Below, one piece after another: positions 5,756-22,980 of a stretch of DNA of 22,980 nt. Location: positions 1 through 22,980 of the IMG/VR virus record IMGVR_UViG_3300044953_000862. One strand, given 5' to 3'. The stretch's first letter is position 1, and the number at the start of each line of letters is the position of its first letter. The position numbers and the translations under genes were made by a program. The notes under the pieces are model-generated. The model made no database searches. It had not been told where the DNA came from and saw nothing but the letters and a program-made list of their open reading frames with translations. Source of the DNA: a virus.

Positions 5756-5757
5756 CG

Positions 5758-6504
5758 TTAGTACCACCTTGCCTTATGCGAAAGGGAGAGGTTGCTGATC
5801 GTTCCCGCCGTGTAGTTCACCTGAAACGTATTACTTCCCACTTCCAGAGAGGGGAAAAGCCCATCAAAGAGAGCCGTCTTGTCCACTCCGCTGATAGTGA
5901 TGCTCTGCTCTAGCGTGTCTATGAGGATAACCTCTCCCCCCGTCACACTGCCGTTCAGCGTGAAACTCTCTCCTGTTGTGTTGTTCAAAACGGTGCAGGA
6001 GAGCGTCACTGCCCCACTGCCTCCCACCGTGAGAGAGAGAACGGGTGCGGCGGGCGCATTCCCTGCGTTGGTTGTGTTTAGGGTCTGCCCGCTGGCGGTA
6101 ATAGTGCGGCTATTGGTCGTGTCCGAAGCCGCGTACTGATAGGGATCGGGAGTGACAAAGGAGAGACGCACTCGCGCAAAACGGGCGTACCCTGTTCCCT
6201 CATAGTTCACCTCAAAGTCTCGCATTTGTGCTTTGCGCCAAAGCCGATCCGCCTCAAAAGAGAGGCTCTGCTCCCCTTGAAGCCCCGCCTTCAGCGCATC
6301 TATCTGCGTGCGAAGTGAGGCTCCTGCGCTCTCAACTAGCCCCCCTTCTAGGCGTATCACCTTCTCGGTAAGGAGCCGTGTGCTTGCTCTTGCGCCTGTT
6401 GTGCGTGCCAGTTTTGCCACGCTGATTCCCGCCTCTCCCGGCTCCTGAATGGGATAGAGCGTTACAGGCAGAGCGTAAGAGCCAAAAGTTGGTATGTAGG
6501 TCAT
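5758..6504 (-). CDS. Distal tail protein (Dit, siphovirus tail component)
   Basis: A 248-residue protein matching the Dit family, which forms a ring joining the tail tube to the hub and fibre. The N-terminal half contains the expected insertion of a helix followed by strands (residues about 90-120, with FEVNYEGTGYARF and LSFVTPDPYQY). The C-terminal galectin-like half ends in the characteristic pattern LFPSLEVGSNTFQV near residue 225. It sits in the canonical order, immediately after the tape measure (stop 6508, start 6504) and two bases before the hub/tailspike start. AAGGAG lies ten bases upstream of ATG 6504. Length and placement both agree with the family. Confidence 0.85.
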   Translation of the reverse strand: MTYIPTFGSYALPVTLYPIQEPGEAGISVAKLARTTGARASTRLLTEKVIRLEGGLVESAGASLRTQIDALKAGLQGEQSLSFEADRLWRKAQMRDFEVNYEGTGYARFARVRLSFVTPDPYQYAASDTTNSRTITASGQTLNTTNAGNAPAAPVLSLTVGGSGAVTLSCTVLNNTTGESFTLNGSVTGGEVILIDTLEQSITISGVDKTALFDGLFPSLEVGSNTFQVNYTAGTISNLSLSHKARWY

Positions 6505-6507
6505 CGC

Positions 6508-7941
6508 TTAAAGGCTCCTTCTCAGTTCGCGCTGAAGTTCTAGCGCAATGCGTCGCCCCACCTCACCATAGTCTGCCGCGTTCCCCTGCCCCGTGTAGTG
6601 AACGTTCACCGTCGTCTGATAGGTGGGGGAGGCAGAGACGGGCGTAGAGATTCCTCCACCCCGTTGCGCCTGAAACGAGTCTGCACCGCGCCGAAAATGC
6701 TTTGCGAAATCCCATCCCCATGTCTGGGCAGTGCGGTCGTTTGCGGCATCATCAAAGCCAAACATTCCGCCCACAATGTCGAACACATTTCCGAAAAGCC
6801 CTCCCACAAACCCGCTCGCCTGCGCCTGTGGCTTTTTGCGAAAGGCAGAGGCAAGCGCACTCTCCAAAGAGTCAGAAAGGAGGTTCGTGAGCGTGCGAAC
6901 CACAATATCGCCAAAAATCCCCGTAACACCCTTTCGCAAAGAGCGGCTCAATACCGAGAGGCTCTCGTTGCTCAAGGTCATCAGCGCATTTTTTACAGAG
7001 CCGCTTCCTTGATCGATTCCCTGCGCCATCGAGTCGGCTCCCAAAGCCCCCTGCCCCCGAAATTCGCGCTTCATCACCTCGTTATCAAGTTTGTAGAGCC
7101 GCTCATAGGTCTTTTGCCACTCTGGTGACGCCTCCTGCAAAGCCTGCAAACGCTCCTGCAAAAACGCCCGATACTCCTCCAAAGAGAGGCGCCCCGTGCG
7201 GAACTCAAAGGCACGTAGCCGCTCCAATTCGCGCATTCGCTTCTCGTTCTCTTCTGCCTCCGCCTCTCCCCGCTCACGAAGCGCATCCATAAAGGAGAAG
7301 TCACCTGAAAGGGCATTGCTGAGGCTCTCCATACCGGGCGCAACTTCGCGCATGGCGGCGGTGTTTCTGCGCCGTTGAATGTCCAGAATCCGCGTCTGAT
7401 AGAGCAGAGCCGCCTCACCGCGAGTAACAGGATTCTCACTACTCCGAAACGTAGTATCAAAATCGCGTTGCGCCTCCAATGCCTCTCGCTGAAAGCGCGT
7501 CATCCCCAGTTTTGCGCGTGCATCTTGGAGGCGTTGCTGTTCACGTCGCTCCGACTCTGCGATATTTTGAAGGCTCAGATCGCGCCGCCGTGTTGCTGTC
7601 TCTTGCGGAACTCCCAACGCGGTATCGTCCTCATAGCGCAGATACGCCTTGAGGCGATTCGCGTCCGCTTTGTCGTGCGTCATCCCAAAGACCGCCGCCT
7701 CTGCCTGTCGCACGGCTCCGCGCACCCCTGCCGCCATCTGACGCGCCGACTCCTGAATGCCTTTGACCAAACCCTGCCCCAAACGCGCTCCCATGCTATT
7801 GCCTGCCTGCTCGGCAAGCCCCACCATCTCACTACTGAAACTGCGAATCTGCGAACGTGCCGCCCCCACATCACGCCGTAAATCCTGCAAATTTAGCCCT
7901 ATGGTCGCCTGAAGGCTTCCCAAATTCACTGTCTCTGCCAT
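6508..7941 (-). CDS. Tail tape measure protein (short)
   Basis: A 477-residue protein that sets tail length and forms the channel plug. It opens with the typical tape-measure pattern (about residues 8-40, LQATIGLNLQDLRRDVGAA). A long helical, charged middle with many Arg/Glu residues follows (about 90-290), then two hydrophobic stretches near 345-375 and 385-405 (GFVGGLFGNVFDIVGG). It closes with a conserved-looking tail (VNVHYTGQGNAADYGEVGRR). At 477 residues it is at the short end for siphophages, which predicts a short tail. It begins five bases after the frameshifted chaperone ends, with AAGGGG ahead of ATG 7941. The neighbours (chaperones before, Dit after) support the call. Confidence 0.85.
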   Translation of the reverse strand: MAETVNLGSLQATIGLNLQDLRRDVGAARSQIRSFSSEMVGLAEQAGNSMGARLGQGLVKGIQESARQMAAGVRGAVRQAEAAVFGMTHDKADANRLKAYLRYEDDTALGVPQETATRRRDLSLQNIAESERREQQRLQDARAKLGMTRFQREALEAQRDFDTTFRSSENPVTRGEAALLYQTRILDIQRRRNTAAMREVAPGMESLSNALSGDFSFMDALRERGEAEAEENEKRMRELERLRAFEFRTGRLSLEEYRAFLQERLQALQEASPEWQKTYERLYKLDNEVMKREFRGQGALGADSMAQGIDQGSGSVKNALMTLSNESLSVLSRSLRKGVTGIFGDIVVRTLTNLLSDSLESALASAFRKKPQAQASGFVGGLFGNVFDIVGGMFGFDDAANDRTAQTWGWDFAKHFRRGADSFQAQRGGGISTPVSASPTYQTTVNVHYTGQGNAADYGEVGRRIALELQRELRRSL

Positions 7942-7945
7942 TGTT

Positions 7946-8574
7946 TCACCCCTTCGGTTCCACCATCATCATATAGCGCACAGGGTGCGCCGCCATAAGC
8001 CTAAGAGTCGCCTCCAACTGAAGGTAGGTCATCTCCCCGATCTCGGCATACGTCCACCCCATGCGCACCGCCACCTGCCAGATAACTGCCGACCAGTCTG
8101 GCTCTAAAAAGCCGGGGGGTCTCCCTGCTCACCCTCCTGTGCCTTCCAGCCGGTCGCCCGTGCCACAATCTCCTGCACCTCATGGGCATCAAAAGCCGCC
8201 TCAATCTCCTCTGCGGTCGCGCTTCGGAGAGCCTGCCCCTCCTCCACACACAGCACGCACTGCGCCAAAGCGATCAGCGCATCGAGATAACGCTCCTCTG
8301 CATCGGGAGCCTCTACGGGGATCGCGTCCAGTACCCGCTTCACCTGAATCAGTTGCCTCTGCTGTTTCAGTTTTGGGGGGCGCACCACGAACCTGCCCAC
8401 TGCGGTGATGATCTCCTCACTTATGTCACCCAGCATAATCTCTAACGACACCGCTTTCTGAACCGCAGGCTTTGCATCGGGTATGTCCCCAAAATCGAAC
8501 GCCTCCGGGTTTTTTGCTATCTTCTCTTGTAAAAGGATCGCCTCTTTAGGCGTGTTGCTCTGCTCTGTAGTCAT
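7946..8574 (-). CDS. Tail assembly chaperone, frameshifted long form (gpGT-like)
   Basis: If ribosomes slip back one base near the end of the short chaperone, translation continues for 55 further codons to TGA 7946-7948, giving about 209 residues. The added segment reads sensibly: after GFLEPDW it continues with IWQVAVRMGWTYAEIG and EMTYLQLEATLRL, and it ends VEPKG. The Trp-rich, EI..MT pattern resembles the T part of many siphophage chaperones. The extension has no start codon of its own suited to separate translation, fills the whole gap to the tape measure, and stops just five bases before it. The product is inferred from this layout; expression level is unknown. Confidence 0.7.
8104..8574 (-). 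CDS. Tail assembly chaperone, short form (gpG-like)
   Basis: A 156-residue acidic, mostly helical protein between the tail tube/glycosyltransferase genes and the tape measure, where lambda gpG-type chaperones lie. Residues about 45-125 contain the likely chaperone core (GRFVVRPPKLKQQRQLIQV, then ALIALAQCVL). It stops at TAG 8104-8106, directly after a run that allows -1 slippage, so it should also be made as a longer G-T fusion. The start ATG 8574 has AAAGG seven bases upstream. The sequence is not strongly diagnostic by itself; the call relies on position and the frameshift arrangement. Confidence 0.75.
   Translation of the reverse strand: MTTEQSNTPKEAILLQEKIAKNPEAFDFGDIPDAKPAVQKAVSLEIMLGDISEEIITAVGRFVVRPPKLKQQRQLIQVKRVLDAIPVEAPDAEERYLDALIALAQCVLCVEEGQALRSATAEEIEAAFDAHEVQEIVARATGWKAQEGEQGDPPAF
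8113..8119 (-). promoter_or_regulatory. Programmed -1 ribosomal frameshift site
   Basis: Read on the minus strand the heptamer is C CCC CCG in the chaperone frame, matching X XXY YYZ: both tRNAs can re-pair as CCC CCC after slipping back one base. Four codons later a second chance exists, because TTT before the stop TAG is preceded by another T. Slippage at either site enters the frame of the 55-codon extension. I did not identify a clear downstream pseudoknot. Confidence 0.6.
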
Positions 8575-8621
8575 CCTTGTGCCTTTCTAAGTGCCTCATC
8601 CCACATTATGAAACGAGGGCT

Positions 8622-8823
8622 AAATCTCCCCCTTTGCTAAGCTCAGAGGGGTATGTATGAGGGGTTTTGAGAGGTAGGAAGGCTCTTTTTACCCACCCCC
8701 TCTGTGTCTCCCCCTCAACTAAGGGGGAGAGGCTCACCTCTCAAAGGTCTATCTGTATTTCAAAAGACTCTTTCAATGCCATGTTTTACATACCCCTCTG
8801 AGCCTTCGCTAAGGGGAGGCTTT
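8622..8823. repeat. Putative MITE-like element with terminal inverted repeats
   Basis: Sequence at 8622-8657 (containing gctcagaggggtatgta) recurs inverted at 8787-8823 (tacatacccctctgagc), about 36 bases with several mismatches. The 200-base unit has no coding capacity. Target duplications were not recognised. It could be a non-autonomous transposable element or a large transcribed hairpin; its location between phage genes suggests later insertion. Confidence 0.45.
8691..8749. repeat. 59-bp dispersed repeat, copy 1 (inverted relative to 20073-20131)
   Basis: The reverse complement of these 59 bases matches 20073-20131 at 57 of 59 positions by eye. The repeat includes a 7-bp hairpin (CTCCCCC with GGGGGAG, loop of 8). 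It links the interior of the phage cluster with a host intergenic region. Confidence 0.75.
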
Positions 8824-8938
8824 CCGCTCCACTGTCAACAAGTTCCGTTTACCAGTTACTTTTGAGGATTAGAGACGCCTTCCAATACCGTGCATTTGCC
8901 TTGCCCCTTACGAAGAGGAAAGGCTGGAAAGGGGTAAA

Positions 8939-10798
8939 CTATATCTGCGCCTTCCACTTCTGCAAAAACCGCATTCGGTTCGGCTCTGCCTCAGAAGCAC
9001 GTACCCCGCTCGACGTGTGGGCATCATGCACAACACTCACCTCAGCGGTAGCCATAACCTGAAACCCCTTTGCACGCGCCTGAAAGCAGTAGTCCACGTC
9101 CTCATAAAAGAGAGGAAAACGACTATCCCAGCGTATCGAACGCCACACATCCGGGCGCACAACCATGCACGCCGTCTCCACATAGTCCACCAAAACCCGA
9201 CCACGCTCTAACAGGCACGGCACGGAGCCGCCATTCAAAAAGAGGCGATTGCCCACGTTTTGAAGTTTGCCCGAAGCGTAACGTTTGAGAGGGGCAAGCA
9301 CCCCAACGGCAGGCTCTTCCGCAAAAACCCTCTGTAGTCCTGTCCACCAGCCTCTAGGAACCACAACGTCGTTATCCAGAAAGGCGATATAGCCGTCCCA
9401 GCGAAGCGTATCACGCAGATACTCCACAGCAACCTGCCGATTCGCGCTCACATTGCCCCCCGAAAGCGGAAGAAGCATCACACTCTCTCGCTCTGCCCAA
9501 GCCCGCGTCTCATCTGTAGAGCCGTCATCTGCCAAGACAATATGCGCCACCCCACAACTCGCCCGCAATGCCCGCACCGTCTCCTGCGTCTTGTCAAGAT
9601 GGTTGTGGGTTGTCACAACGACGGCAAGCGGCTTCTCCGCCACCTTGCGCGGTTTTCGGGATACATTTGTATCCTGAACCTCCTCAACAACCTCCAAAAG
9701 CCGCTCTCCCAAAGCCGTCAAGCCATACGCACGCACCGCACGCTCTGCCAACGCCTCCCCCTCTTCCACTTTCCCCGCACAGATGCGCTCATAGGCACGA
9801 CGCAGAGTGCGTTTCAGAGTCTCTACCTCACAAGCGTGCCAGCGGTTATCAGAGCCGTATATCTGCGGAAGCAAGCCCACACTCGAAACAGGGCGGCAAG
9901 GAATCTTCATGCCACCCAGAGTAGTCAGCACATCTTGCGCCCCACCCCCATCCAACCCAATGACCGGCACACCGCACATCGCCGCCTCCACATACGGCAA
10001 CCCAAACCCCTCCGCAGAGGGCAAAACATAGGCATCGCCAGCACGATAGAGGGCTGACATCTGTGCCTCACTCAGGCTCTCCTTAATAACCTCCACCCAA
10101 GACCCCATCGCACGACACCAACTCGCCAACTCCTCCACTTCAGCGGCGCGAGTCGGCTTCACCAGCAAGCCCACGCTCTCCCCACGAAACTCCTCCGCAA
10201 ACGCCTGCAAAAGAACCCGCCACCCCTTCCGCTCACAGGTCGAAAAGACCGAAACAAAGAGAAAGTCCGGACGCTTCTGCACCTCACGCGCCACTCCATC
10301 AGGCTTCCAGCATCGCTCATCTACTCCCAAAGGGAAGAGCCGCTTACGGGGGCGCACCACTTGCCGCTCTGCCGCCTCCAGATTCCACCGCGAAGGAACC
10401 AAAAGCATATCCACATTCTCACAAGACCGCGCCCAACCGCTTGGCACGCGCTCCGTCTCCCACATCGTCAAACCAATGCGCTTCCCCTGTGAAAATTCGC
10501 CCCAGTCCGAAAGCGCGTGGGGGTTCCCCATAATCAAGGTTGGAGCATTTTGTGATACTTTTGTCTCCTGAACCTGTACGATCTCCTGCTCCTGAAATTC
10601 AGGTAACTTCGTCGGAAACTTCGGAACCCAACCTCTCTCCACAGAGCCATCTGCCTTCAAAGTCGCCTCAAAGCGTCGCTCAATCTCGATCAGTTCCACG
10701 CTCATATTCACGCGCCGCGCCGCCGATAACAGCGCACGCCCTGCCTTCGCATAGCCCGAACGGTTATGCACGGGCGCAATCAACCGCAAAGCCTCCAT
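8939..10798 (-). CDS. Bifunctional glycosyltransferase (GT4-like plus GT2-like domains)
   Basis: A 619-residue protein with two sugar-transfer domains. Residues about 1-375 form a GT-B fold of the GT4 type: an N-terminal SGYAKAGRAL loop, ERKGW near 189-193, and the EX7E signature SAEGFGLPYVE (E263, E271). Residues about 388-600 form a GT-A fold of the GT2 type, with VVTTHNH, ADDGSTDET (424-431), the DXD-type FLDNDV (473-478) and YEDVDYCF. It probably builds or decorates a surface polysaccharide or glycosylates a virion protein using nucleotide sugars; no substrate can be read from sequence. It interrupts the usual tail tube to chaperone order, behind a terminator and ahead of a repeat-filled gap, so it looks like an added cargo gene. 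ATG 10798 is preceded by AGGAGG at six bases; a longer reading frame to 10864 has no such support. Confidence 0.85.
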   Translation of the reverse strand: MEALRLIAPVHNRSGYAKAGRALLSAARRVNMSVELIEIERRFEATLKADGSVERGWVPKFPTKLPEFQEQEIVQVQETKVSQNAPTLIMGNPHALSDWGEFSQGKRIGLTMWETERVPSGWARSCENVDMLLVPSRWNLEAAERQVVRPRKRLFPLGVDERCWKPDGVAREVQKRPDFLFVSVFSTCERKGWRVLLQAFAEEFRGESVGLLVKPTRAAEVEELASWCRAMGSWVEVIKESLSEAQMSALYRAGDAYVLPSAEGFGLPYVEAAMCGVPVIGLDGGGAQDVLTTLGGMKIPCRPVSSVGLLPQIYGSDNRWHACEVETLKRTLRRAYERICAGKVEEGEALAERAVRAYGLTALGERLLEVVEEVQDTNVSRKPRKVAEKPLAVVVTTHNHLDKTQETVRALRASCGVAHIVLADDGSTDETRAWAERESVMLLPLSGGNVSANRQVAVEYLRDTLRWDGYIAFLDNDVVVPRGWWTGLQRVFAEEPAVGVLAPLKRYASGKLQNVGNRLFLNGGSVPCLLERGRVLVDYVETACMVVRPDVWRSIRWDSRFPLFYEDVDYCFQARAKGFQVMATAEVSVVHDAHTSSGVRASEAEPNRMRFLQKWKAQI

Positions 10799-10817
10799 CT
10801 CACGCCTCCTAAAAGAT

Positions 10818-10857
10818 AAAAAAGAGGGGACTCCTCCACAAAAGCAGAGAAGCCCCC
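10818..10857 (-). terminator. Intrinsic terminator between tail tube and glycosyltransferase genes
   Basis: On the minus strand a 14-bp stem (10844-10857 with 10826-10839, several G-U pairs) closes on a UUUU loop and is followed by UCUUUUUU. This is a textbook Rho-independent terminator placed 28 bases after the tail tube stop. It should reduce transcription of the glycosyltransferase and tail genes relative to head and tube genes. Confidence 0.8.
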
Positions 10858-10885
10858 AAAACACACCCTCTCACACCGACGAACC

Positions 10886-11401
10886 CTAAGAAGTGGTCTG
10901 ATCTCCCGGAAGGATCAGGCGCATGATGTTCGTCCCATCACCATATACATTGAACTGAAATTTCGGAATCACGAAGGTATTCAGTTGCAGTTTCAGGTCT
11001 GCCGAAGTGCAGACACAACCCCACAGGTAGATTTCCAAATCCGATCCGTCCGAAGGGGACTTCAAGTGCAGGTCAAACCGCACAGGCTCATCGTTCACCC
11101 CAATGTTGTAGGTCGTCTTACCCGAAGCAAACGAGGGAGCCGTACCCCCACGAAGCAGATAGTACTGCCTCATGCGTACCTTCGCGTGTTCTGCCGTGCC
11201 AGAGACCTTATGCTCTTTCACAGCAACCGCTTTCGCCGTCAGTTGGTCGGGACCCATCAACTCCTCCAACGCATACTGCGACGTTATCTCCACATTCTGT
11301 AACTCCCCAAAGGGAACATCGTCCGTCGCACCACCTAGCCGCGTCCCAAAGAGATAGGCTTTTGCAAAGACCACACCACCCGGATTGATGATTGAACTCA
11401 T
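10886..11401 (-). CDS. Major tail tube protein
   Basis: A 171-residue protein expected to polymerise into the tail tube. It has the pattern of siphophage tube proteins: an N-terminal strand region (GGVVFAKAYLFGTRLG), a central LQNVEITSQYALEELMGPDQL segment, a KVSGTAEHAKV loop, and a beta-rich C-terminal half ending in a region like FNVYGDGTNIMRL. The gene lies after the tail terminator (stop 11423) and ahead of an intrinsic terminator, where abundant tube protein is usually encoded. AAAGGAG nine bases upstream supports ATG 11401. Family assignment rests on size, composition and order rather than a strict motif. Confidence 0.75.
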   Translation of the reverse strand: MSSIINPGGVVFAKAYLFGTRLGGATDDVPFGELQNVEITSQYALEELMGPDQLTAKAVAVKEHKVSGTAEHAKVRMRQYYLLRGGTAPSFASGKTTYNIGVNDEPVRFDLHLKSPSDGSDLEIYLWGCVCTSADLKLQLNTFVIPKFQFNVYGDGTNIMRLILPGDQTTS

Positions 11402-11422
11402 CGCGTCTCACTCCTTTCGCGC

Positions 11423-11932
11423 CTAATAGCGCACCTCAAGAAACTCATATCGAACCAAACCAGCCCACGCATGAAGGCTCGGATCGTAAACGACAGCAAG
11501 CGGACTAAACGCCTGCATAGCAAACAGTTTGCCACTCTCCAAACTCAAACCGCTCACCACGCCCCGCCGCGTATCTAACAGCAGTTCCATACACTCCGCA
11601 ATGTCGGTAATGCGTTTCGCGCTTGTGCCGTCCTCCCATATCTCAAAATCGTAGAGAACGCGCTCCACTGCCCCCGTCTCCTGCTGAAAACGACGATCCG
11701 TAGAGCCGCCCGAAGGGCGAAACGTAATACACGGATAGAGCGGCAACGGGTTGCCAGAACCATCAAAAGCCTGTGCGGAACTCTTATTACCAAAAAAGAC
11801 CGCAGGCGCGTCACTCTCCGTATCTAGCCCCAAAAGAGTCGCTAACTCTGCCTGTGCCTCTCCTCCTGCCCCTGTCAAAGCCTCACTACCAGAGAGTCGC
11901 GCATATACCGCTTTAGAGAGAGCCGTACTCAT
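11423..11932 (-). CDS. Tail terminator / tail completion protein
   Basis: A 169-residue protein of the tail completion type (lambda gpU, DUF3168-like), which caps the tail tube and joins it to the head. Recognisable features are the start SKAVYARLSGSEAL, the Pro-rich LPLYPCITFRP turn near residues 63-74, the FEIWEDGTSAKRITDIAECMELLLD helix region near 95-120 (shown in part in other families as W.....A..I.E.V), and a basic-hydrophobic end RYEFLEVRY. ATG 11932 overlaps the stop of the preceding gene as ATGA, indicating translational coupling. It directly precedes the tube gene, the expected position. Confidence 0.8.
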   Translation of the reverse strand: MSTALSKAVYARLSGSEALTGAGGEAQAELATLLGLDTESDAPAVFFGNKSSAQAFDGSGNPLPLYPCITFRPSGGSTDRRFQQETGAVERVLYDFEIWEDGTSAKRITDIAECMELLLDTRRGVVSGLSLESGKLFAMQAFSPLAVVYDPSLHAWAGLVRYEFLEVRY

Positions 11933-12282
11933 ACTGCCACCTCCTGCAACGAGTCTGAGAGAAGACTCCGTATCGCACCTTCATTCTGCGAAACTGCCTC
12001 CCAAAGCCATGCCCAACGCCCGTTTCGCGCCAGTTCCAAAAACCGCGCATAGTCCGTTCCCACTGTAAGAACCACCTCCAAGAGATCGCCCTTTAGCAGA
12101 ACCTCCGCCTGCGTGCTGGCATCTGTGGCTCCCGTGCGTGACTGCCAAAAGTGGTGGGTGCGTGCATACTCTACCAAGAGATTCCCAATCGCCTCTGCGG
12201 TCGCGTATGCACGCTCCTGTACACGGATCTCCCACGCATCAAGCCGATCCAAAACCTCCTCAACACCTGTAAAGCCGCTCAT
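11929..12282 (-). CDS. HK97 gp10-like neck protein
   Basis: A 117-residue head-tail joining protein of the HK97 gp10 type. It starts MSGFTGVEEVLDRLDAW, continues with a helix rich in Ala/Glu (AYATAEAIGNLLVEYART), then a T-G rich turn and strands, and has the typical VGTDYARFLELARNGR segment near residues 75-90. A longer open frame extends upstream to 12468 but overlaps the head closure gene. ATG 12282 overlaps that gene's stop by ATGA and gives a protein of normal family size, so I choose it. Confidence 0.8.
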   Translation of the reverse strand: MSGFTGVEEVLDRLDAWEIRVQERAYATAEAIGNLLVEYARTHHFWQSRTGATDASTQAEVLLKGDLLEVVLTVGTDYARFLELARNGRWAWLWEAVSQNEGAIRSLLSDSLQEVAV

Positions 12283-12602
12283 GTCACCCTCCGCGTATCT
12301 ATCTGAAGCGAGTGCGAATAGGCGCGAACAAAAAGCACACGCCACTCCGCCCCACCCTCTTCCTTCAGAACATCGTTCACACGCACATCGGGGTAGGTCG
12401 CTCCAAACAGGATAAAGAGGCACTGGTTCTCGGTACGCACGCCCGGGTTCGCCTCTGTGCGCCACCAAGACTGTTGCGAGTAGAGCCTCCTATGCGCCTT
12501 CAAGTCCGTCGCCACATCGCTATAGGTCTCCACCTTGCCCCCTGCACCATCAGAGACACGCCCCGCACGACGTACCGCAATCGTCACCCAATCGCTAGCC
12601 AT
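12279..12602 (-). CDS. Head closure / head-tail adaptor protein
   Basis: A 107-residue beta-rich protein of the phage head closure (SPP1 gp16-like, HK97 head-tail adaptor) class, which seals the portal after packaging. Typical features are the early VTIAVRRAGRVSDGAGGKVE strand-turn, a W-R pair in the middle (SWWRTEANPG), and YPDVRVNDVLKEEG followed by a final strand pattern. AGGAGG lies four bases before ATG 12602, and the stop is coupled to the next gene by ATGA. The position between connector and gp10-like gene is canonical. Confidence 0.8.
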   Translation of the reverse strand: MASDWVTIAVRRAGRVSDGAGGKVETYSDVATDLKAHRRLYSQQSWWRTEANPGVRTENQCLFILFGATYPDVRVNDVLKEEGGAEWRVLFVRAYSHSLQIDTRRVT

Positions 12603-12612
12603 ATCGCCTCCT

Positions 12613-13236
12613 CTACGCCACTACCAGGCGCCGATAGTGCCGCACCGCCTCTGCATAGCCCCGCTCCCAGCCTTGAACCAACGAAGCAAATGGCTCCGCA
12701 CCACTGCTCTGCTCTACATCGCCTTCCCGCCAACGCAGAAGCCCCCGTGAATAAGCCGCGTGAATCTGAGGAATCAATAGCACCGCCGCCTTTCCCAAAA
12801 CCGCCTGCTTCACCGAATCCGGCAGAGCCGCCACACACCCCCACCGCCCTGCCACAGCGATAGAGCCACGTCTCCCCGATGGAACAGACACAAACTCCAG
12901 AGAGGTAATAGGCACTCCTCGCGCACCTGCGTTCTTCGGCATACAGAAGAAGTCCGTGTTCTCTACCTGCACTACTCCCGCAAGGCTCACACTGGTTAAG
13001 GTCATCAGACCACCCTGCAAGTCCAGAATGCAGGTCTCGTTCGGGTCAAAGTAGCGTGTGACATCTGTATTCTGTTTTAGAAATGGGAACCACCGTACCT
13101 CCTGCTCAAAACGCTCTTGCGCCGCACTGACGGCTCCTGCCAAATCCAAAAGCGTCTCCGTTCTACTCAGTGGAACTTCGAGAAGCCCACCAGCCTGCAA
13201 AAACGCCTCCAAGTCGTCTGCTGTCAACCAACTCAT
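12613..13236 (-). CDS. Head-tail connector protein (gp6/gp15-like)
   Basis: A 207-residue adaptor expected to bind beneath the portal ring. It opens with SWLTADDLEAFLQAGG, has an N-terminal helix with AAQERFEQEVRWFPF, and a middle beta insertion around residues 65-125. A helical C-terminal part (DSVKQAVLGKAAVLLIPQI) then resembles the DNA packaging/connector family. GAGAGGAG is seven bases upstream of ATG 13236. It follows the major capsid gene, as in HK97-like phages. The central insertion makes it longer than the minimal gp6 fold. Confidence 0.75.
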   Translation of the reverse strand: MSWLTADDLEAFLQAGGLLEVPLSRTETLLDLAGAVSAAQERFEQEVRWFPFLKQNTDVTRYFDPNETCILDLQGGLMTLTSVSLAGVVQVENTDFFCMPKNAGARGVPITSLEFVSVPSGRRGSIAVAGRWGCVAALPDSVKQAVLGKAAVLLIPQIHAAYSRGLLRWREGDVEQSSGAEPFASLVQGWERGYAEAVRHYRRLVVA

Positions 13237-13278
13237 ATCACAACTCCTCTCAAGAAAGCCCCCTAGCGAAGAGGGGCA

Positions 13279-13300
13279 GGGGGAAGAGTTATCTTCCCCC
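13279..13300 (-). other. Hairpin after the major capsid gene
   Basis: Positions 13279-13287 and 13292-13300 make a perfect 9-bp stem (gggggaaga / tcttccccc) with a 4-base loop in the 82-base gap after the capsid gene. No U tract follows on the minus strand, so it is not a standard intrinsic terminator. It may protect the 3' end of capsid mRNA or lower downstream expression. Confidence 0.6.
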
Positions 13301-13318
13301 GTTCAAGCAGATGAGGGA

Positions 13319-14539
13319 CTAGATACCAGTCACTTTGCAGAACGCCGCCGCGCGGTAGATTTCGAGGCTCAAACGCTCTTCAATGCGAATCGCCAACTTG
13401 CCCTCTGCGAAGTAGGTGCTGTGGCTATCCGAAATGTCAATGCGAAGCCCCTTCTTGCGGCTAATGTGCGAATACATGGCGAAGTCACCCACAAGAGCGG
13501 TTCCCTCTGTCTGAACCGGAGTCACAATGACAGGCTTACCCCAAATGCGATCAACCCCCTCCTCCGAAGAGGCTCCCCACAGATAGAGACCATCGCTTGT
13601 GGTAGCAAGGCGAATGCTCTGCCAGTCGTTCGGGTTCATAATGACCGCGTTCGGCTCCGCAAAACCGGTGTAGCGCACAAGGGTCATGCCCTTGAAGATG
13701 GCATCTTGTGGGCTGTCTGCACCTATTGCATGAGTCTGAACCCCGCTCTTGTTCATAAAACCAAGCAGGTTCGGAGAGCTTCCATCCCCGTTCAGAATCT
13801 GGTTCTCTTCGGTCAACAGCAACTGCGTGATAAGGCGGTTGTCAATGGTGGAACGCACCCCCGCAACGTCCTCAAGCAGCTCCTCTGTGACAGGAAGCAG
13901 AGCCGCCAACTTCTGCACTTGAGCAGTACGCTCGGTGAACACAAGTGCCGATTCCGGAATGGTTCCGCCTTCTGCCACCGCCGCAACGCCGTTGGTAAAA
14001 GTGGTCTCTTCCATGTACTTAACCACCGATACATCGGTTGGGTCTTGTGGAACATAGTCTGCCACCACAGGGCGACGATGGGCTGAAAAGACCACGCGAT
14101 TCGTGCGCGGATTCGCAGGAGCATAGCCCGCACTCGTGCTCATCAAGGTCTTCAAATCGAGGTTTGAAAGTAGCGCACTAATCCCCTTTTTGTTCACCTG
14201 TTGCACGTAGTTACTCGCCTGCAAAAACTGCTCCGAGAGAGACTTGGCATCATAAGCCCCCTCCACAATTCCAGCCTCAAAGCGACGATCCAGACGCCCA
14301 CCCTCCGCCTCACGATTCTGCTTAAACGCCCTATCGTAGGCACGTGCCGCCTCAAGATGCCCCTCCAAATCCTCCAACTCCTGAACGCGATCCCGAACCT
14401 CACCCAGCTCTCCCGCGCTCAGTTCGAAACTATCACCACCCATACCGTTGCGCTTGCCCGACTTTCGCGAATCGAAAATCTTCTGCAACTGCTCACGCTT
14501 CGCCGCAATCTCGTTTTGTAGGGCTACTACATTACTCAT
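13319..14539 (-). CDS. Major capsid protein, HK97 fold with delta domain
   Basis: A 406-residue HK97-type coat protein. Residues 1 to about 105 are a charged helical delta (scaffold) region that the prohead protease would remove (AAKREQLQKIF, VQELEDLEGHLEAARAYDRA). The mature part has the usual patterns: VVADYVPQDPTDVSVVKYMEE near 157-177, AAVAEGGTIPES near 185, LLPVTEELLEDV near 215, LLTEENQILNGDGSSPNLLG near 240, and the WGKPVIVTPV and IRIEERLSLEIY strands near the end. GAGGAG nine bases before ATG 14539 supports the start. It follows the protease and precedes the connector, as expected. Confidence 0.92.
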   Translation of the reverse strand: MSNVVALQNEIAAKREQLQKIFDSRKSGKRNGMGGDSFELSAGELGEVRDRVQELEDLEGHLEAARAYDRAFKQNREAEGGRLDRRFEAGIVEGAYDAKSLSEQFLQASNYVQQVNKKGISALLSNLDLKTLMSTSAGYAPANPRTNRVVFSAHRRPVVADYVPQDPTDVSVVKYMEETTFTNGVAAVAEGGTIPESALVFTERTAQVQKLAALLPVTEELLEDVAGVRSTIDNRLITQLLLTEENQILNGDGSSPNLLGFMNKSGVQTHAIGADSPQDAIFKGMTLVRYTGFAEPNAVIMNPNDWQSIRLATTSDGLYLWGASSEEGVDRIWGKPVIVTPVQTEGTALVGDFAMYSHISRKKGLRIDISDSHSTYFAEGKLAIRIEERLSLEIYRAAAFCKVTGI

Positions 14540-14559
14540 CGTTCTTCACTCCTCTGTTT

Positions 14560-15297
14560 TTAGGAAAGACGCACGCCCAAACGTCGCGCCTCCAAAGTCA
14601 AAAATCGTAGATACAACGCCTGTGCCTCAGAAGCGAAGCACACCTCTGGCTCCTTAGCCGCCGCCTTAAAGCCATGCAACGCAATCGCCGTTGCCCGACC
14701 TCGTGAGAACCCTCCTACCTCCCGTAGGAAACGCTCAAAGTCGCGCTCCGAAACGATCTCCCTCCGCTCCGACTTCACCCCCAAAATCTGCGTCATACGG
14801 TTTGCCGGAACCGTCACCGGAGAGACCTCAATCAGGCGAGCGCGGGTAATAAGCCGAGCCCCCTGTTTCGCACGATCAAGCTCATCGGGTTGTGGAGAGT
14901 ATCCCACGCTCCGCCAGTAGGCACGTACCGCCTCCTGATCCCCCAAAATGCGCTTGCCAAACGTCTGAAAACCTATCGAAAGATGCTGAACCACACCGTC
15001 CTGCATAAGCGTTCTGCACTCGTGCGCCGCCAGCGTATCCGAAAGCGCGGCGCGAATCCAAAGCCCCTTACTGTCCTCTTTCGCCGCCACAGGACGCCCA
15101 ATCGGGTGATCCCAATCGTGATTCATGCCCCCAATAAACCCCTGCGCCACAAACTCCGCCAAAGAGTCCTGAAAGGCACGTTCCGCAACAATATCTCCCA
15201 CATCATCGAGATTATGACAACGGCTTGCATACCCCTCAAACTCACCCTCTGTCTCTGTTGTCGTCAGTTCACAGGGCAGAACTTTTCGCTCCACCAT
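14560..15297 (-). CDS. HK97-type prohead protease (S78)
   Basis: A 245-residue serine protease that should cleave the delta domain from the capsid protein during maturation. Visible catalytic features are His60 in GGMNHDWDHPIGR, Ser107 in VVQHLSIGFQ, and Glu157 in LIEVSPVTVPAN. The core ends near residue 175; the remaining 70 residues are a basic, helical tail that may be self-cleaved. The open frame reaches 15339, but ATG 15297 has AAAGGAG six bases upstream and begins VERKVLPCEL, the usual family start. The first 29 bases overlap the end of the portal gene. Confidence 0.9.
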   Translation of the reverse strand: MVERKVLPCELTTTETEGEFEGYASRCHNLDDVGDIVAERAFQDSLAEFVAQGFIGGMNHDWDHPIGRPVAAKEDSKGLWIRAALSDTLAAHECRTLMQDGVVQHLSIGFQTFGKRILGDQEAVRAYWRSVGYSPQPDELDRAKQGARLITRARLIEVSPVTVPANRMTQILGVKSERREIVSERDFERFLREVGGFSRGRATAIALHGFKAAAKEPEVCFASEAQALYLRFLTLEARRLGVRLS

Positions 15298-16549
15298 GGG
15301 CGTCTCCTTTCTCCACATTCGCAAAATAGACTCCCTCATCTTCAGGCAAGGGCGTGCGACCCACCAACCGCTTCCATGTCGCCCGATCCATCAAGCCCGC
15401 TTTCCAATCCTCGCGCAGACGTGTATGAAGCGCATCCTCATCAGGTATCAGGGGACGAATGGCAGAGACATCAAAATAGAGAGCCTGCTTCTCCCAATCC
15501 TCTGCAAACTCCGGTAAGAGCGCGTGTCCTAGCCCGCCTGCAATCAGTTTCAATAGCGGCAAAAGCGTCTCTTCCCAAGCCACCTCCCGCGCCTCACGCA
15601 GGTTTGCATACGTCTTCGAGAGTCGCCCCGAATGCAACCCAACCACCTGCGCCGGAACCCCCAGAGCGGCGCAAATATCTGCCTCTGAGCGATCCAACAG
15701 AGTCTCCAGTGCCAAGTCTTGCGGCGTCGCCTTCGGATAGTGAACCTCCACAGGCACATTCGTCGCCAGCACCCCACCCGCTTTGTCGCCCTGCGTCTTC
15801 GCCTTCCAAAGAGACGTAAGCTCCTCTAAGTCGAAGAGCGTGTTCGCCTCTTTCGGCGTAATAATGGTTCCCGCCGTCCCGAAATTGCGTAGCACATTCG
15901 CCGTATAGTTCGCCCCCTGATTCAGCACATACTGTTGCCTCTGCACAGAGACCAGTGGCGAAAGCCCATAGCGCGGATCATTCGGGTCAATCCCCAGTTT
16001 GAGATGCACAATATCCGCCTTTGGAACTCGCAACGTCACCCCATTTGCCTGCCGAAACTCCCAAAAATCGAAAGGCTCACGGCTATGCGCCTCTTTTCCC
16101 ATCGTCACTCGCGTATGCGACAGCCAGCACAGCTCCACAGGAACTCCATCGCCATCGCGCTCCACACCCAAATAGGCGTTTCCACTCGCAAGCAGACTGG
16201 AAACAATACCCGCCATCAAACCTTGCCTATCCATCGTATGGTTCGGGTGATTCAACAACCTCAAAAGCGGATGCTCTGGCAAAACCTGTTGGCTTCCATC
16301 GCGAAAGAGCCGCTTCACCATCGGCTCCGCCTGATTCACATTCTTCGCAATCCAGCTCACACAGGCGTACCACGCCGCATTCTGGCTCGGCTCCCCTATC
16401 AGGCTATGCCAATCCACCACCGTCCCCACCACATCGAAAGATCGGCGTGGCTCCATTCTGTTTCCCGGAAGACCACTACCAGCCCAGTCTCCCCCACCCC
16501 AAAACGCCTTCAAACTCGCCTGCACTCGCGCACCAAAACTCTGTCTCAT
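15269..16549 (-). CDS. Portal protein (HK97 family)
   Basis: A 426-residue portal subunit forming the DNA entry ring and the docking site for terminase. Family patterns include NAAWYACVSWIAKNVNQAEP near residue 57, HPLLRLLNHPNH near 92, LLASGNAYLGVERDGDGVP near 119, DIVHLKLG followed by YGLSPL near 185-200, and CAALGVPAQVVGLHSG near 290. The ATG at 16549 overlaps the terminase stop (ATGA) and is preceded by GGGAGG; a GTG two codons earlier has no room for a ribosome binding site. The C-terminal end (LPEDEGVYFANVEKG) overlaps the protease start. Confidence 0.9.
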   Translation of the reverse strand: MRQSFGARVQASLKAFWGGGDWAGSGLPGNRMEPRRSFDVVGTVVDWHSLIGEPSQNAAWYACVSWIAKNVNQAEPMVKRLFRDGSQQVLPEHPLLRLLNHPNHTMDRQGLMAGIVSSLLASGNAYLGVERDGDGVPVELCWLSHTRVTMGKEAHSREPFDFWEFRQANGVTLRVPKADIVHLKLGIDPNDPRYGLSPLVSVQRQQYVLNQGANYTANVLRNFGTAGTIITPKEANTLFDLEELTSLWKAKTQGDKAGGVLATNVPVEVHYPKATPQDLALETLLDRSEADICAALGVPAQVVGLHSGRLSKTYANLREAREVAWEETLLPLLKLIAGGLGHALLPEFAEDWEKQALYFDVSAIRPLIPDEDALHTRLREDWKAGLMDRATWKRLVGRTPLPEDEGVYFANVEKGDAHGGAKSSAL

Positions 16550-18033
16550 GCCCACCTCCCCACGCGAAACTGCGAAAGCAGATTAAACGCATCTGCCGCC
16601 GCGTCTACTTGGTCATCGTGTTGCCCCTTTGGAAAGGCACGCAACTCCTCCACAAAATCTCGGTTCCACGCCCCACGCACGAGGCGCACCATTCCCGCAT
16701 TCACATAAGCACTCATAGGGTCTGCTCTCACCTCCTTTGCGCCCGTAGCACGCACCACATCCACCCGCCAGCCCGCCAAATTCCGCACAAAAGCACGCGC
16801 CGCATCCACCCCCGCACTGCCGGGGTCTTGCACTCCGCGCACACGGCAAGCCACACCATCGCGCACCGCAGTCTCCAAAATCTCACGGTTCCGCCTATCC
16901 GGGCTCCACTGACCACGCACCACATCTGCCACATAGTAAAGCCCCTCCGAATCGGGACCCGCCATCTTAACACCCGCCGTAAAGTCACCGCTTCCCTGCG
17001 TCGCCGCCTGATCCCATGCCCGACACATCAGCAAACCATCAGGAACCCGATCCACCGTCTCCAAGCGATCCACCTTAAAGAAGGCTCCACTGCGCTCTAT
17101 AGGCTTGCCCTGAAACTGCCCCAACCAGACCGGCGCACTCTTCTGCATCTCTGCCAACCACTTCTCCGTCCAACGAGAGCAGAGTTTTTCGCCAAAAGGA
17201 CGCCCCAAAGGGTCTTCCGCTTCTCCTTCCGAAATCGCCGCATAACGCAGAAGCTCCCATGCGCCCCCCTCCGAAACCAAACCCTCTTCCCGCATCAGTC
17301 GCCCCGCCAAGTCGTCTGTGTGGTACCGATGAAACATCACCACCACATTAGAATCGGGAGTCAAGCGCACCTTTGCCGCCTCCTCCCAAAACATCCAGAC
17401 AGAGTCACGAATAACCGCACTCAAAGCCTCTTGCGGTGAAGCGTATGGGTCATCAATGGTGAGCATATCTGCTCCCTGCCCCACAAAGCCCGTCTGCAAC
17501 CCCAACGCCTTGAGGCTCGGCTGTCCGTCCCTCTTCTTCAATCGCGCCAGAGTACTCCACTCCTCCTGAGAAGGAGATTTCTCCAAACGACACGCCTGCT
17601 TTGGAAACAGGTCACGATACATATCGCTCTGCATAAGGTCACGCCCCACACGGCTAAAGCGCGTCGCCTGCCCAATGTTGTAGCAAGCGATCTTGATCCG
17701 CATCTCCGGATTGCGCCCCAAAAGCCAAACCGGATACCTTTGCGAAAGAATAATGCTTTTTCCCGCCTGCGGAGGAGCGCAGATCAGGAGGCGTTGACCT
17801 CTCTCCTCTCGCAAGCGTTCCAGACGCGCACAGAGGTGTACCTGCCACGGCTCTAAAGTAAGGGAGGTAGTCAGTTCCACAAACTCCGTTAGAGAAAGGC
17901 TCTCACCACTGCCCGGCGTATACAACCTCTGTTCGCGCCCCCCAGACTCCCCAAAATGGAAGCCTGAAATATGAAACCCAACCCACTCTTTGGGAAGGTT
18001 GGGAAGAACCGTTTTCTTGCCGCCGCCTCGCAC
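16546..18033 (-). CDS. Terminase large subunit (TerL)
   Basis: The DNA packaging motor, 495 residues from GTG 18033. The ATPase part shows an adenine-binding EPWQ (61-64), Walker A APPQAGKS (86-93) and Walker B MLTIDD (190-195). The nuclease part shows acidic residues in RAWDQA (Asp341), VQDPGSAG (Asp403) and HDDQVDA (Asp473/474). The open frame extends to a TTG at 18078, but that codon lies immediately at the foot of a terminator-like hairpin. GTG 18033 instead has AGAAGGAGG nine bases upstream. It is the first gene of the operon and is followed by the portal with ATGA overlap. No small terminase gene precedes it, which is unusual. Confidence 0.9.
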   Translation of the reverse strand: MRGGGKKTVLPNLPKEWVGFHISGFHFGESGGREQRLYTPGSGESLSLTEFVELTTSLTLEPWQVHLCARLERLREERGQRLLICAPPQAGKSIILSQRYPVWLLGRNPEMRIKIACYNIGQATRFSRVGRDLMQSDMYRDLFPKQACRLEKSPSQEEWSTLARLKKRDGQPSLKALGLQTGFVGQGADMLTIDDPYASPQEALSAVIRDSVWMFWEEAAKVRLTPDSNVVVMFHRYHTDDLAGRLMREEGLVSEGGAWELLRYAAISEGEAEDPLGRPFGEKLCSRWTEKWLAEMQKSAPVWLGQFQGKPIERSGAFFKVDRLETVDRVPDGLLMCRAWDQAATQGSGDFTAGVKMAGPDSEGLYYVADVVRGQWSPDRRNREILETAVRDGVACRVRGVQDPGSAGVDAARAFVRNLAGWRVDVVRATGAKEVRADPMSAYVNAGMVRLVRGAWNRDFVEELRAFPKGQHDDQVDAAADAFNLLSQFRVGRWA

Positions 18034-18067: not shown

Positions 18068-18178
18068 CCAAAACACAAAAAGCCCGCTCCTAAACACCAC
18101 TTTTGCAGTGCCTAGAAACGGGCTTTCCAAAATGAGCCACGCCACTATTCGGTTAAATCAACCTCAATTCCGTGTGAC
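18068..18178 (-). ncRNA. Candidate leader RNA or small RNA with 22-bp hairpin
   Basis: Transcription from the perfect promoter should start near 18178. The RNA then folds a 22-bp stem (18105-18126 with 18079-18100) closed by AAAA, with every position paired when G-U is allowed. The stem ends GGGCUUU and runs into UUGUGUUUU, like an intrinsic terminator. If it terminates, the product is a small RNA of about 110 bases. If it is read through, it is the 5' leader of the TerL operon. The G-U pairs would be A-C mismatches on the other strand, so the fold is specific to the minus-strand RNA. Confidence 0.5.
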
Positions 18179-18212
18179 AAATGTATTATACAGCACCTTC
18201 TTGTATTTGTCA
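18175..18212. promoter_or_regulatory. Imperfect operator-like dyad embracing P-A
   Basis: Arms TGACAAATGTA (18175-18185) and TGTATTTGTCA (18202-18212) are inverted repeats matching at 9 of 11 positions. One arm covers the start site and -10 edge, the other the -35. A repressor bound here would block RNA polymerase. The arms partly arise from the -35 sequence itself, so chance is possible. Confidence 0.4.
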
Positions 18213-18213
18213 A
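18185..18213 (-). promoter_or_regulatory. Perfect sigma70 promoter of the phage operon (P-A)
   Basis: On the minus strand TTGACA (18213-18208) and TATAAT (18190-18185) are exactly consensus with a 17-base spacer. The promoter points at TerL, 145 bases ahead of its start codon. A promoter this strong in front of capsid and packaging genes implies tight control, by repression or by termination in the leader. Confidence 0.9.
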
Positions 18214-18300
18214 GTCACCCCCATCCACCCGCAGGGCTTCACAACACACCTTCCCAATTCAGAAAACACCTGCCATAATAGAAGGGAACGGAAGTGACCC

Positions 18301-18621
18301 ATGCCCACTCTAAAAATCACCTCTATTGGAAGTGCAACGGGTATTGTGTTGCCTCCAGAGATACTAGAGCGTCTCCACGTTCAGACGGGAGACAGCCTCT
18401 ACGTCTCAGTCACTCCACAGGGCATTGAACTTATTCCCGCCCCCACAGAGTTTACGGCGCAGATGAAAATAGCGGAGCAGATCATGCTGGAAGACGCCGA
18501 TGCTCTCAAAAGACTCGCTGAGTACGGAAAACCAACTGGCAATCTGGCTTCGTCAGAGAGTTTATCTCCTTTCACAATAGACTACGAACCTATCCTCCTC
18601 AAACAAAAAGCCCACTCCTAA
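18301..18621 (+). CDS. AbrB/MazE-type DNA-binding protein (orphan antitoxin-like)
   Basis: A 106-residue protein whose first 75 residues match the AbrB/MazE/SpoVT antitoxin family: a swapped-hairpin DNA-binding start (LKITSIGSATGIVLPPEIL), GDSLYVSVTPQGIEL, and EQIMLEDADALKRLAE. Family members of this type often end at that point and precede a Doc/Fic-type toxin gene. Here about 30 extra residues follow and no toxin gene is present. The last six codons and the stop lie inside copy B of the promoter-hairpin module, suggesting the original end was altered. GGAAG lies six bases before ATG 18301, and a weak CATAAT -10 sits at 18274-18279. It is divergent from the TerL operon and 87 bases from its promoter, so it is a candidate regulator of it; this is inference. 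Confidence 0.75.
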   Translation: MPTLKITSIGSATGIVLPPEILERLHVQTGDSLYVSVTPQGIELIPAPTEFTAQMKIAEQIMLEDADALKRLAEYGKPTGNLASSESLSPFTIDYEPILLKQKAHS

Positions 18622-18654
18622 ACATCTTGTTTGTAGTGTCCAGAAATGGGCTTT
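18607..18654 (-). ncRNA. Hairpin of module copy B
   Basis: The same 22-4-22 base design as copy A on the minus strand, followed by UUGUUUG. Against copy A, stem position 8 changes from G-C to A-U by paired substitutions, and positions 14 and 16 swap between A-U and G-U, keeping pairing. Three inner positions near the loop are unpaired. The hairpin overlaps the end of the AbrB-like gene on the other strand. Confidence 0.5.
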
Positions 18655-18686
18655 CCAAAATGAGCCGCGTCGCTATATTACTTTGA

Positions 18687-18902
18687 CTCACGTTACGCAC
18701 GCTCTCAGAGTTAGGGCTTGTATTACCTCTCCCCCTGTCCCCCTCCCCTAAGAAGGGAGGGAGAATGGTACACAAACGATGTGCCTCCAACGAGAGGGAG
18801 AGACTTCGTAATACAGGGCATTGAACCCCTCCGAAGGTGGGGTTTCGTAAATAGAGCGTAGGGTTTTCAACCCTATGCGATTCGGGTATTGCGTAACGTG
18901 AG
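18687..18902. mobile_element. MITE-like insertion, 216 bp, with 9-bp target duplication
   Basis: The ends CTCACGTTACGCA (18687-18699) and TGCGTAACGTGAG (18890-18902) are perfect 13-bp inverted repeats. Directly outside them ttactttga occurs on both sides (18678-18686 and 18903-18911), a 9-base target duplication. The interior has no reading frame of note but several hairpins (for example gcgtagggtt...aaccctatgc). It is therefore a non-autonomous DNA element, moved by a transposase not in the window. It sits about five bases downstream of the expected start site of promoter P-B. Confidence 0.9.
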
Positions 18903-18913
18903 TTACTTTGAGT

Positions 18914-18942
18914 ATGATACTCCACCTTCCCGTATTTGTCAA
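18914..18942 (-). promoter_or_regulatory. Promoter of module copy B (P-B)
   Basis: On the minus strand TTGACA (18942-18937), a 17-base spacer and TATCAT (18919-18914), five of six matches to the -10 consensus. A perfect 13-base palindrome GAGTATGATACTC (18910-18922) covers the -10, unlike copy A, and could bind a regulator. Its transcript now enters the inserted MITE. Confidence 0.7.
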
Positions 18943-18960
18943 ACTGCACCCTAACAGAGG

Positions 18961-22813: not shown

Positions 22814-22980
22814 TGTTACGCAGTACCTGTACCGCATAGGGTTGAAAACCCTACGCTCTATTTACGAAACCCCACCTTCGGAGGGGTTCAATGCCCTGTA
22901 TTACGAAGTCTCTCCCTCTCGTTAGAGGCACATCGTTTGTGTACCGTTCCCCCTCCCTTCTTAGGGGAGGGGGACAGGGG
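22810..22980. mobile_element. Second MITE copy, inverted, cut by the window edge
   Basis: The sequence from 22810 to the window end matches the reverse complement of 18902-18732, with about nine differences in 171 bases by eye. Its outer end CTGATGTTACGCA keeps 11 of 13 terminal-repeat bases and includes the TGA stop of the DUF1549/DUF1553 gene. The far end lies beyond the window, so the target duplication cannot be read. Confidence 0.85.

Follow-up and report, generated by a model that had tools for sequence, protein, structure and literature searches.

The window, by which we mean the whole of the 22,980-bp virus record IMGVR_UViG_3300044953_000862, carries a late gene cluster on its minus strand, and at the head of this cluster is what appears to be a phage late promoter with an intrinsic terminator downstream of it, in the untranslated leader of the operon. 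Judging from the sequence and from analogy with known systems, we consider it probable, at about three chances in four, that the late operons equipped with this unit are switched on by antitermination at the leader terminator. Two copies of the unit are present in the window: copy 1 would govern the terminase-head-tail operon, and copy 2 appears to hold the position that the unit of the holin (lysis) operon has in relatives. The features concerned are the following:

608..16555, minus strand: remaining late-operon genes (portal, prohead protease, capsid, connector/tail, tape measure, distal tail, tail spike)
16546..18033, minus strand: TerL (terminase large subunit; Pfam Terminase_6C/6N), first gene of the late operon
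18076..18126, minus strand: intrinsic terminator of copy 1, with a stem of ~22 bp, a loop of AAAA and a T-run
18127..18178, minus strand: copy 1 leader RNA, from the predicted start site (~18178, placed by means of the -10 box) to the hairpin
18185..18213, minus strand: copy 1 promoter, perfect sigma-70, TTGACA-N17-TATAAT (12/12)
18301..18621, plus strand: orphan AbrB/MazE-fold antitoxin-like gene (Pfam MazE_antitoxin), between the two copies
18604..18654, minus strand: hairpin and T-run forming the intrinsic terminator of copy 2
18678..18686, no strand assigned: left target site duplication TTACTTTGA (9 bp, exact), flanking the MITE-like insertion
18687..18902, no strand assigned: MITE-like insertion of 216 bp with 13-bp perfect TIRs CTCACGTTACGCA, immediately downstream of the -10 box of copy 2
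18903..18911, no strand assigned: right target site duplication TTACTTTGA (9 bp, exact), flanking the MITE-like insertion
18914..18942, minus strand: copy 2 promoter, TTGACA-N17-TATCAT (11/12), with one -10 mismatch

The two promoter-hairpin copies in the window

Copy 1 lies within the terminase 5' leader, at the head of the head/tail operon; TerL itself probably starts at a GTG codon at 18033, with AGGAGG upstream. The hairpin lies 58 nt from the promoter and its stem leads directly into a T-run (GGGCTTTTTG) at 18076, which gives it the shape of an intrinsic terminator, a point that the preliminary description of this DNA did not name. When folded as minus-strand RNA, the copy 1 hairpin attains -47 kcal/mol with a z-score of -6.1 against shuffles (plus strand, -2.9), and that of copy 2 attains -31.3 kcal/mol with a z-score of -5.2 (plus strand, -1.8). 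The fold is thus strong on the minus strand only, the strand for which the earlier description had called the G-U pairs valid. The intervening leader of copy 1 contains neither an ATG nor a supported competing helix, and an Rfam search of the window returned nothing above the gathering cut-off.

The preliminary description had recognized two direct minus-strand copies, and these indeed exist: the hairpin part (74 nt) and the promoter part (31 nt) are each 84% identical between them. The promoters are as strong as had been stated, with 12/12 consensus positions in copy 1 (18213-18185) and 11/12 in copy 2 (18942-18914) and 17-nt spacers in both, against a chance expectation of ~0.01 perfect promoters per shuffled window. 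Likewise, the count of 9 differing bases out of 48 between the hairpins is exact (positions 8, 14, 16, 21, 26, 27, 28, 30 and 41). The compensatory changes reported from these differences hold in part: position 8 (G-C vs A-U) is the sole such change between the two window copies, and positions 14 and 16 are one-sided alternations of A-U and G-U.

The described short distance from promoter to hairpin is seen in copy 1 but not in copy 2, where the gap is 259 nt because the 216-bp element sits between promoter and terminator. The portrayal of the two as like modules overstates their current likeness, the insertion in copy 2 having been missed. A second copy of the MITE-like element is found at 22810-22980, cut by the right end of the record, with 166 nt aligned at 96%. 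It is this MITE-like element, situated within copy 2, that is mobile here, rather than the promoter-hairpin module. The 13-bp terminal sequence of the element also occurs once each at two loci (L086 and L095) of G003, one of the relatives considered below.

Relatives of the unit and conservation of its stem

TerL matches were found in 42 of 291 Armatimonadota genomes, of which three (G001, G002 and G003) have the closest versions, at 64-66%. In each of these the terminase gene directly follows a promoter that matches the consensus at 12/12 positions, spaced by 17 nt, and a stem of 20-22 bp with a T-run (in G003, loci L098/L246), and a perfect promoter-terminator is also located upstream of TerL on the viral contig L160. 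The scan detected no promoter-terminator at TerLs of <=57% identity; given that these more distant homologous phages are without it, the unit appears to be confined to one clade.

A covariance model built from five copies and run over 31 Chthonomonadia genomes recovered five strong matches, namely the three at TerL and one each in G001 (G001:C200:10944) and G003 (G003:C304:654), the latter two each having their own perfect promoter and lying upstream of a holin gene. The holin is a PF05105 protein in G001 and a 70% homologue in G003, with no other among the 31 genomes. In G001 the order of transcription is unit 2, holin, an 81-aa protein, a 227-aa protein, unit 1 and TerL. The earlier suggestion that the module belongs to a family of small RNAs or is a mobile unit is not borne out by this distribution, the strong model matches being found only at the terminase and holin of one phage-derived cluster, nor by the terminator-like make-up of the hairpin. 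The weaker matches of the model that were inspected (G004, G009, G002:C553, G003:C393 and G017; <= ~40 bits) are terminator-like stems without a perfect promoter. Among weak plain-DNA matches in genomes of the family, L084, L096, L101 and L102 show no such hairpin and were set aside as chance; the match L098 in G003 is real.

Both holin leaders (L134 10944-11100 and L240 654-809) contain two terminators in tandem, a small one and then a large one, ahead of the gene and after its promoter. The G003 holin was not retained as a separate locus: its contig ends just past the holin and could join the TerL contig. Divergent from the G003 holin unit is a 141-aa protein (L240 891-1313) that by eye resembles a helix-turn-helix regulator and matched no Pfam, NCBIfam or PADLOC model.

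An exact scan of the viral and genome collections with the shared core GGCTCATTTTGGAAAGCCC gave no match. A degenerate leader-plus-stem scan of viral contigs returned nine matches, with a promoter only in L285, which comes from the same contig as L160. Eight of 80 viral contigs with related capsids have a TerL match, and the unit is present only in L160; a scan by portal found none.

For the stem, seven copies from four genomes were aligned over 20 pairs. Pairing is kept in 95.7% of the cells, a percentage that is favoured by the structure having been derived from the same seven sequences. Both sides have changed in 7 of the 20 pairs (12 cells), against shuffled means of 3.2 and 4.1 and with 0/500 shuffles doing as well, numbers that are not to be taken as probabilities since the seven sequences are related and the structure is self-derived. 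In a control with the partner slid by 1-3 columns, the both-side-changed pairs fell to 0-1. The kept pairing and the seven compensatory pairs of the terminator stem support the preliminary description in its proposal of selection on a minus-strand RNA fold. In all seven copies a G+C-containing stem, with 20-26 paired positions counted, is followed by a U-run. The sigma-70 promoter (TTGACA/TATAAT, 17-nt spacing) is 12/12 in the six intact copies and in L160, and 11/12 in window copy 2.

Across G001-G003 there are 38 perfect TTGACA-N17-TATAATA promoters, at 11-14 per genome, and none of the reversed pattern, which indicates that this lineage makes ample use of the consensus sigma-70 promoter. 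Thirty of these 38 loci were read. At all five late loci the promoter is followed, after 44-66 nt, by a terminator of 20-23 bp, and the remaining 25 have a terminator-like stem in three cases (L249 and L263, both tRNA-gene-like, and L270, which is weak), a comparison that describes rather than tests, as the late loci were known beforehand.

Units 2 and 1 of the window follow the order and direction of those in G001, but are only ~390 bp apart. No homologues of the G001 holin, 81-aa and 227-aa proteins were found in the window record, and the antitoxin-like gene at 18301-18621 occupies the place of the G001 holin operon. Based on the missing holin, the mismatch in the -10 box and the MITE-like element in the leader, we read window copy 2 as probably a relic of a lysis-operon unit whose operon has been lost. 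The copies within one genome are closely alike in both the window and G001, and hence the hairpins cannot reveal descent. The antitoxin-like gene scores 55.3 bits against TIGR02609 (cut-off, 55.9), and no adjoining toxin gene was recognized. The stop codon of its frame falls inside the copy 2 hairpin, resulting in an extra C-terminal tail.

Proposed antitermination and competing explanations

In the six intact copies the leader is 46-68 nt long, and 30-49 nt separate the T-run from the start codon. In most of these copies, this space is too short for an ordinary promoter plus a ribosome-binding site. The units display the lambdoid type of organization, with a promoter and then a terminator before the late genes and no promoter between. 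Where the sole access to a gene is via a strong terminator, read-through is required. We accordingly infer transcription, termination, antitermination and a dedicated factor at these units from their sequence. Under this proposal, the host RNA polymerase would need no activator to initiate at the near-consensus promoter and would halt at the hairpin and U-run to yield a ~100-nt RNA. The late genes would come on only once the polymerase has been rendered terminator-resistant by an antitermination factor that loads either at the promoter or within the leader.

Late control by a promoter that runs into a terminator is already known in lambdoid phages and, in another form, in the Caulobacter GTA. 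For phage Q, the loading site is a DNA element between -35 and -10, and Q passes terminators (PMC6606751). Like the pR'-tR'/Q systems of lambda, 21 and the Stx phages, the present unit combines a sigma-70 promoter with a terminator before late genes and would release a short by-product RNA, which is predicted here. Unlike them, it is placed before TerL and, in relatives, again before the holin, and has 44-66 nt from the -10 box to a 20-23-bp stem. A further difference is that no Q-type antiterminator (PF06530, antitermQ) was found in the five genomes searched (G001-G004 and G011), nor any Q-binding-type motif common to all copies. A dyad between -35 and -10, ACAG-N5-CTGT, is perfect only in the G002 TerL and G003 holin copies and imperfect in two more. 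The sequence GGCTCTT, which might be boxA-like, is observed in only 3 of 7 copies.

The Caulobacter crescentus GTA employs GafY, GafZ and IHF together with terGTA (Tran & Le 2024, PMC11150451); GafZ loads at the promoter, at a site between -10 and -35, and passes terminators (PMC11150451). The likeness lies in a particle gene cluster with an early terminator, with antitermination operating there and predicted here. However, terGTA consists of three 150-bp repeats after the first gene, whereas the hairpin here is in the leader, and the Caulobacter GTA promoter needs the activator GafY plus IHF, whereas the core promoter here equals the consensus. The presence of a promoter-terminator arrangement of this type in a distant, little-studied phylum, before both lysis and particle operons, suggests a wider spread or a repeated origin of antitermination as a lock on lysis and particle production. 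It also points to a putative antiterminator and, in Armatimonadota, to a candidate GTA-like element.

In the antitermination reading, the ~100-nt terminated RNA is a predicted by-product, for which a trans-acting role is possible. That the unit is instead a stand-alone small RNA gene, whose ~100-nt terminated transcript acts in trans, appears unlikely to us, even though a promoter, short leader and terminator would constitute a complete gene of this kind and the leader segment adjoining the hairpin is conserved between loci within one genome. There is also a precedent in StxS, a short RNA from between the late promoter and terminator in the pR'-tR' region of Stx phages (PMC7873438), to which the RNA predicted here would correspond. 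What weighs against it is that all strong copies in relatives directly precede TerL or the holin, with an RBS-like site and start ~30-50 nt past the T-run, a placement for which a free small RNA gene has no need; moreover, StxS is itself a by-product of antitermination control, making this alternative compatible with antitermination. A shade less likely still is a leader attenuator, in which the terminator is melted at the RNA level, by a riboswitch, a leader peptide or an RNA-binding protein, with no polymerase-modifying factor involved. In 7/7 copies the AGCC of the 5' arm has a possible pairing partner in a GGCT that precedes the stem, and the two might form a tiny antiterminator. Yet the six intact leaders, short as they are, contain no ATG or leader peptide and form no duplex with the 5' arm beyond what shuffles give, and there is no Rfam match. 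Furthermore, the second, different terminator in series at the holin copies would not be bypassed by a single local switch.

Host-type genes lie upstream in both the window and G001, and the hairpin could accordingly be a mere insulator against upstream read-through, with TerL transcribed from elsewhere; we regard this as improbable, for it leaves unexplained why, in each of the intact copies, a perfect promoter points at the terminator, and the stretch from the T-run to the start codon offers little space for another promoter. The two copies in the window and the presence of a MITE-like element might also suggest a mobile regulatory unit, i.e., a repeat element that is here by coincidence. 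This is very hard to reconcile with strong model matches that occur only before TerL and holin; no target duplication was noted around the unit, and the MITE-like element is a separate entity inside copy 2.

Prophage or GTA-like cluster and its host

The ~18-kb cluster of G001 spans contigs C88 and C200 and is broken inside the tape measure gene (L280 9539-17406 and L134 1-11994). On its left side, tail genes and a GDSL-like protein extend to dihydroorotate dehydrogenase, and on its right side the holin is followed by PhyH; no integrase, repressor or replication genes were seen in the cluster between these host genes. The window record extends on the left as far as the tail-spike end of the cluster. 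Between G002 and G003, dS is 0.16 for TerL and 0.17-0.21 for two host genes, and the dN/dS of TerL and portal between G002 and L160 is 0.07-0.09; these values fit vertical inheritance under selection. Counting against vertical, GTA-like inheritance are the patchy presence of TerL in the family (7/17 genomes) and the TerL homologue of G046 (57%), upstream of which the contig carries a long run of genes without a match in the window, as in a fuller prophage.

Together, the gene content points to the G001 cluster as possibly a GTA-like element in Armatimonadota; a literature search found no GTA from the Chthonomonas lineage of this phylum. As a tentative and rather doubtful extension, one may envisage a Chthonomonas-lineage GTA in which twin consensus promoters, one for the lysis and one for the particle operon, are held by leader terminators and co-released by one antiterminator of a new family.

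The right end of the window codes for a PSCyt2/PSD1 protein. Most of the closest relatives of this protein (68-76%) come from Chthonomonas-related MAGs (Armatimonadota). Based on the relatives of this single gene, the host of the window is most likely an Armatimonadota bacterium near Chthonomonas. The tail cluster of the window also includes a two-domain glycosyltransferase of GT1 + GT2 type (8939-10864), and G001 has no gene at that place. At 608-5767 the window encodes a 1719-aa tail protein with a beta-helix/pectate-lyase-like part, and its counterparts in G001 and G002 are frames of ~781-787 aa that match its first ~760 residues only.
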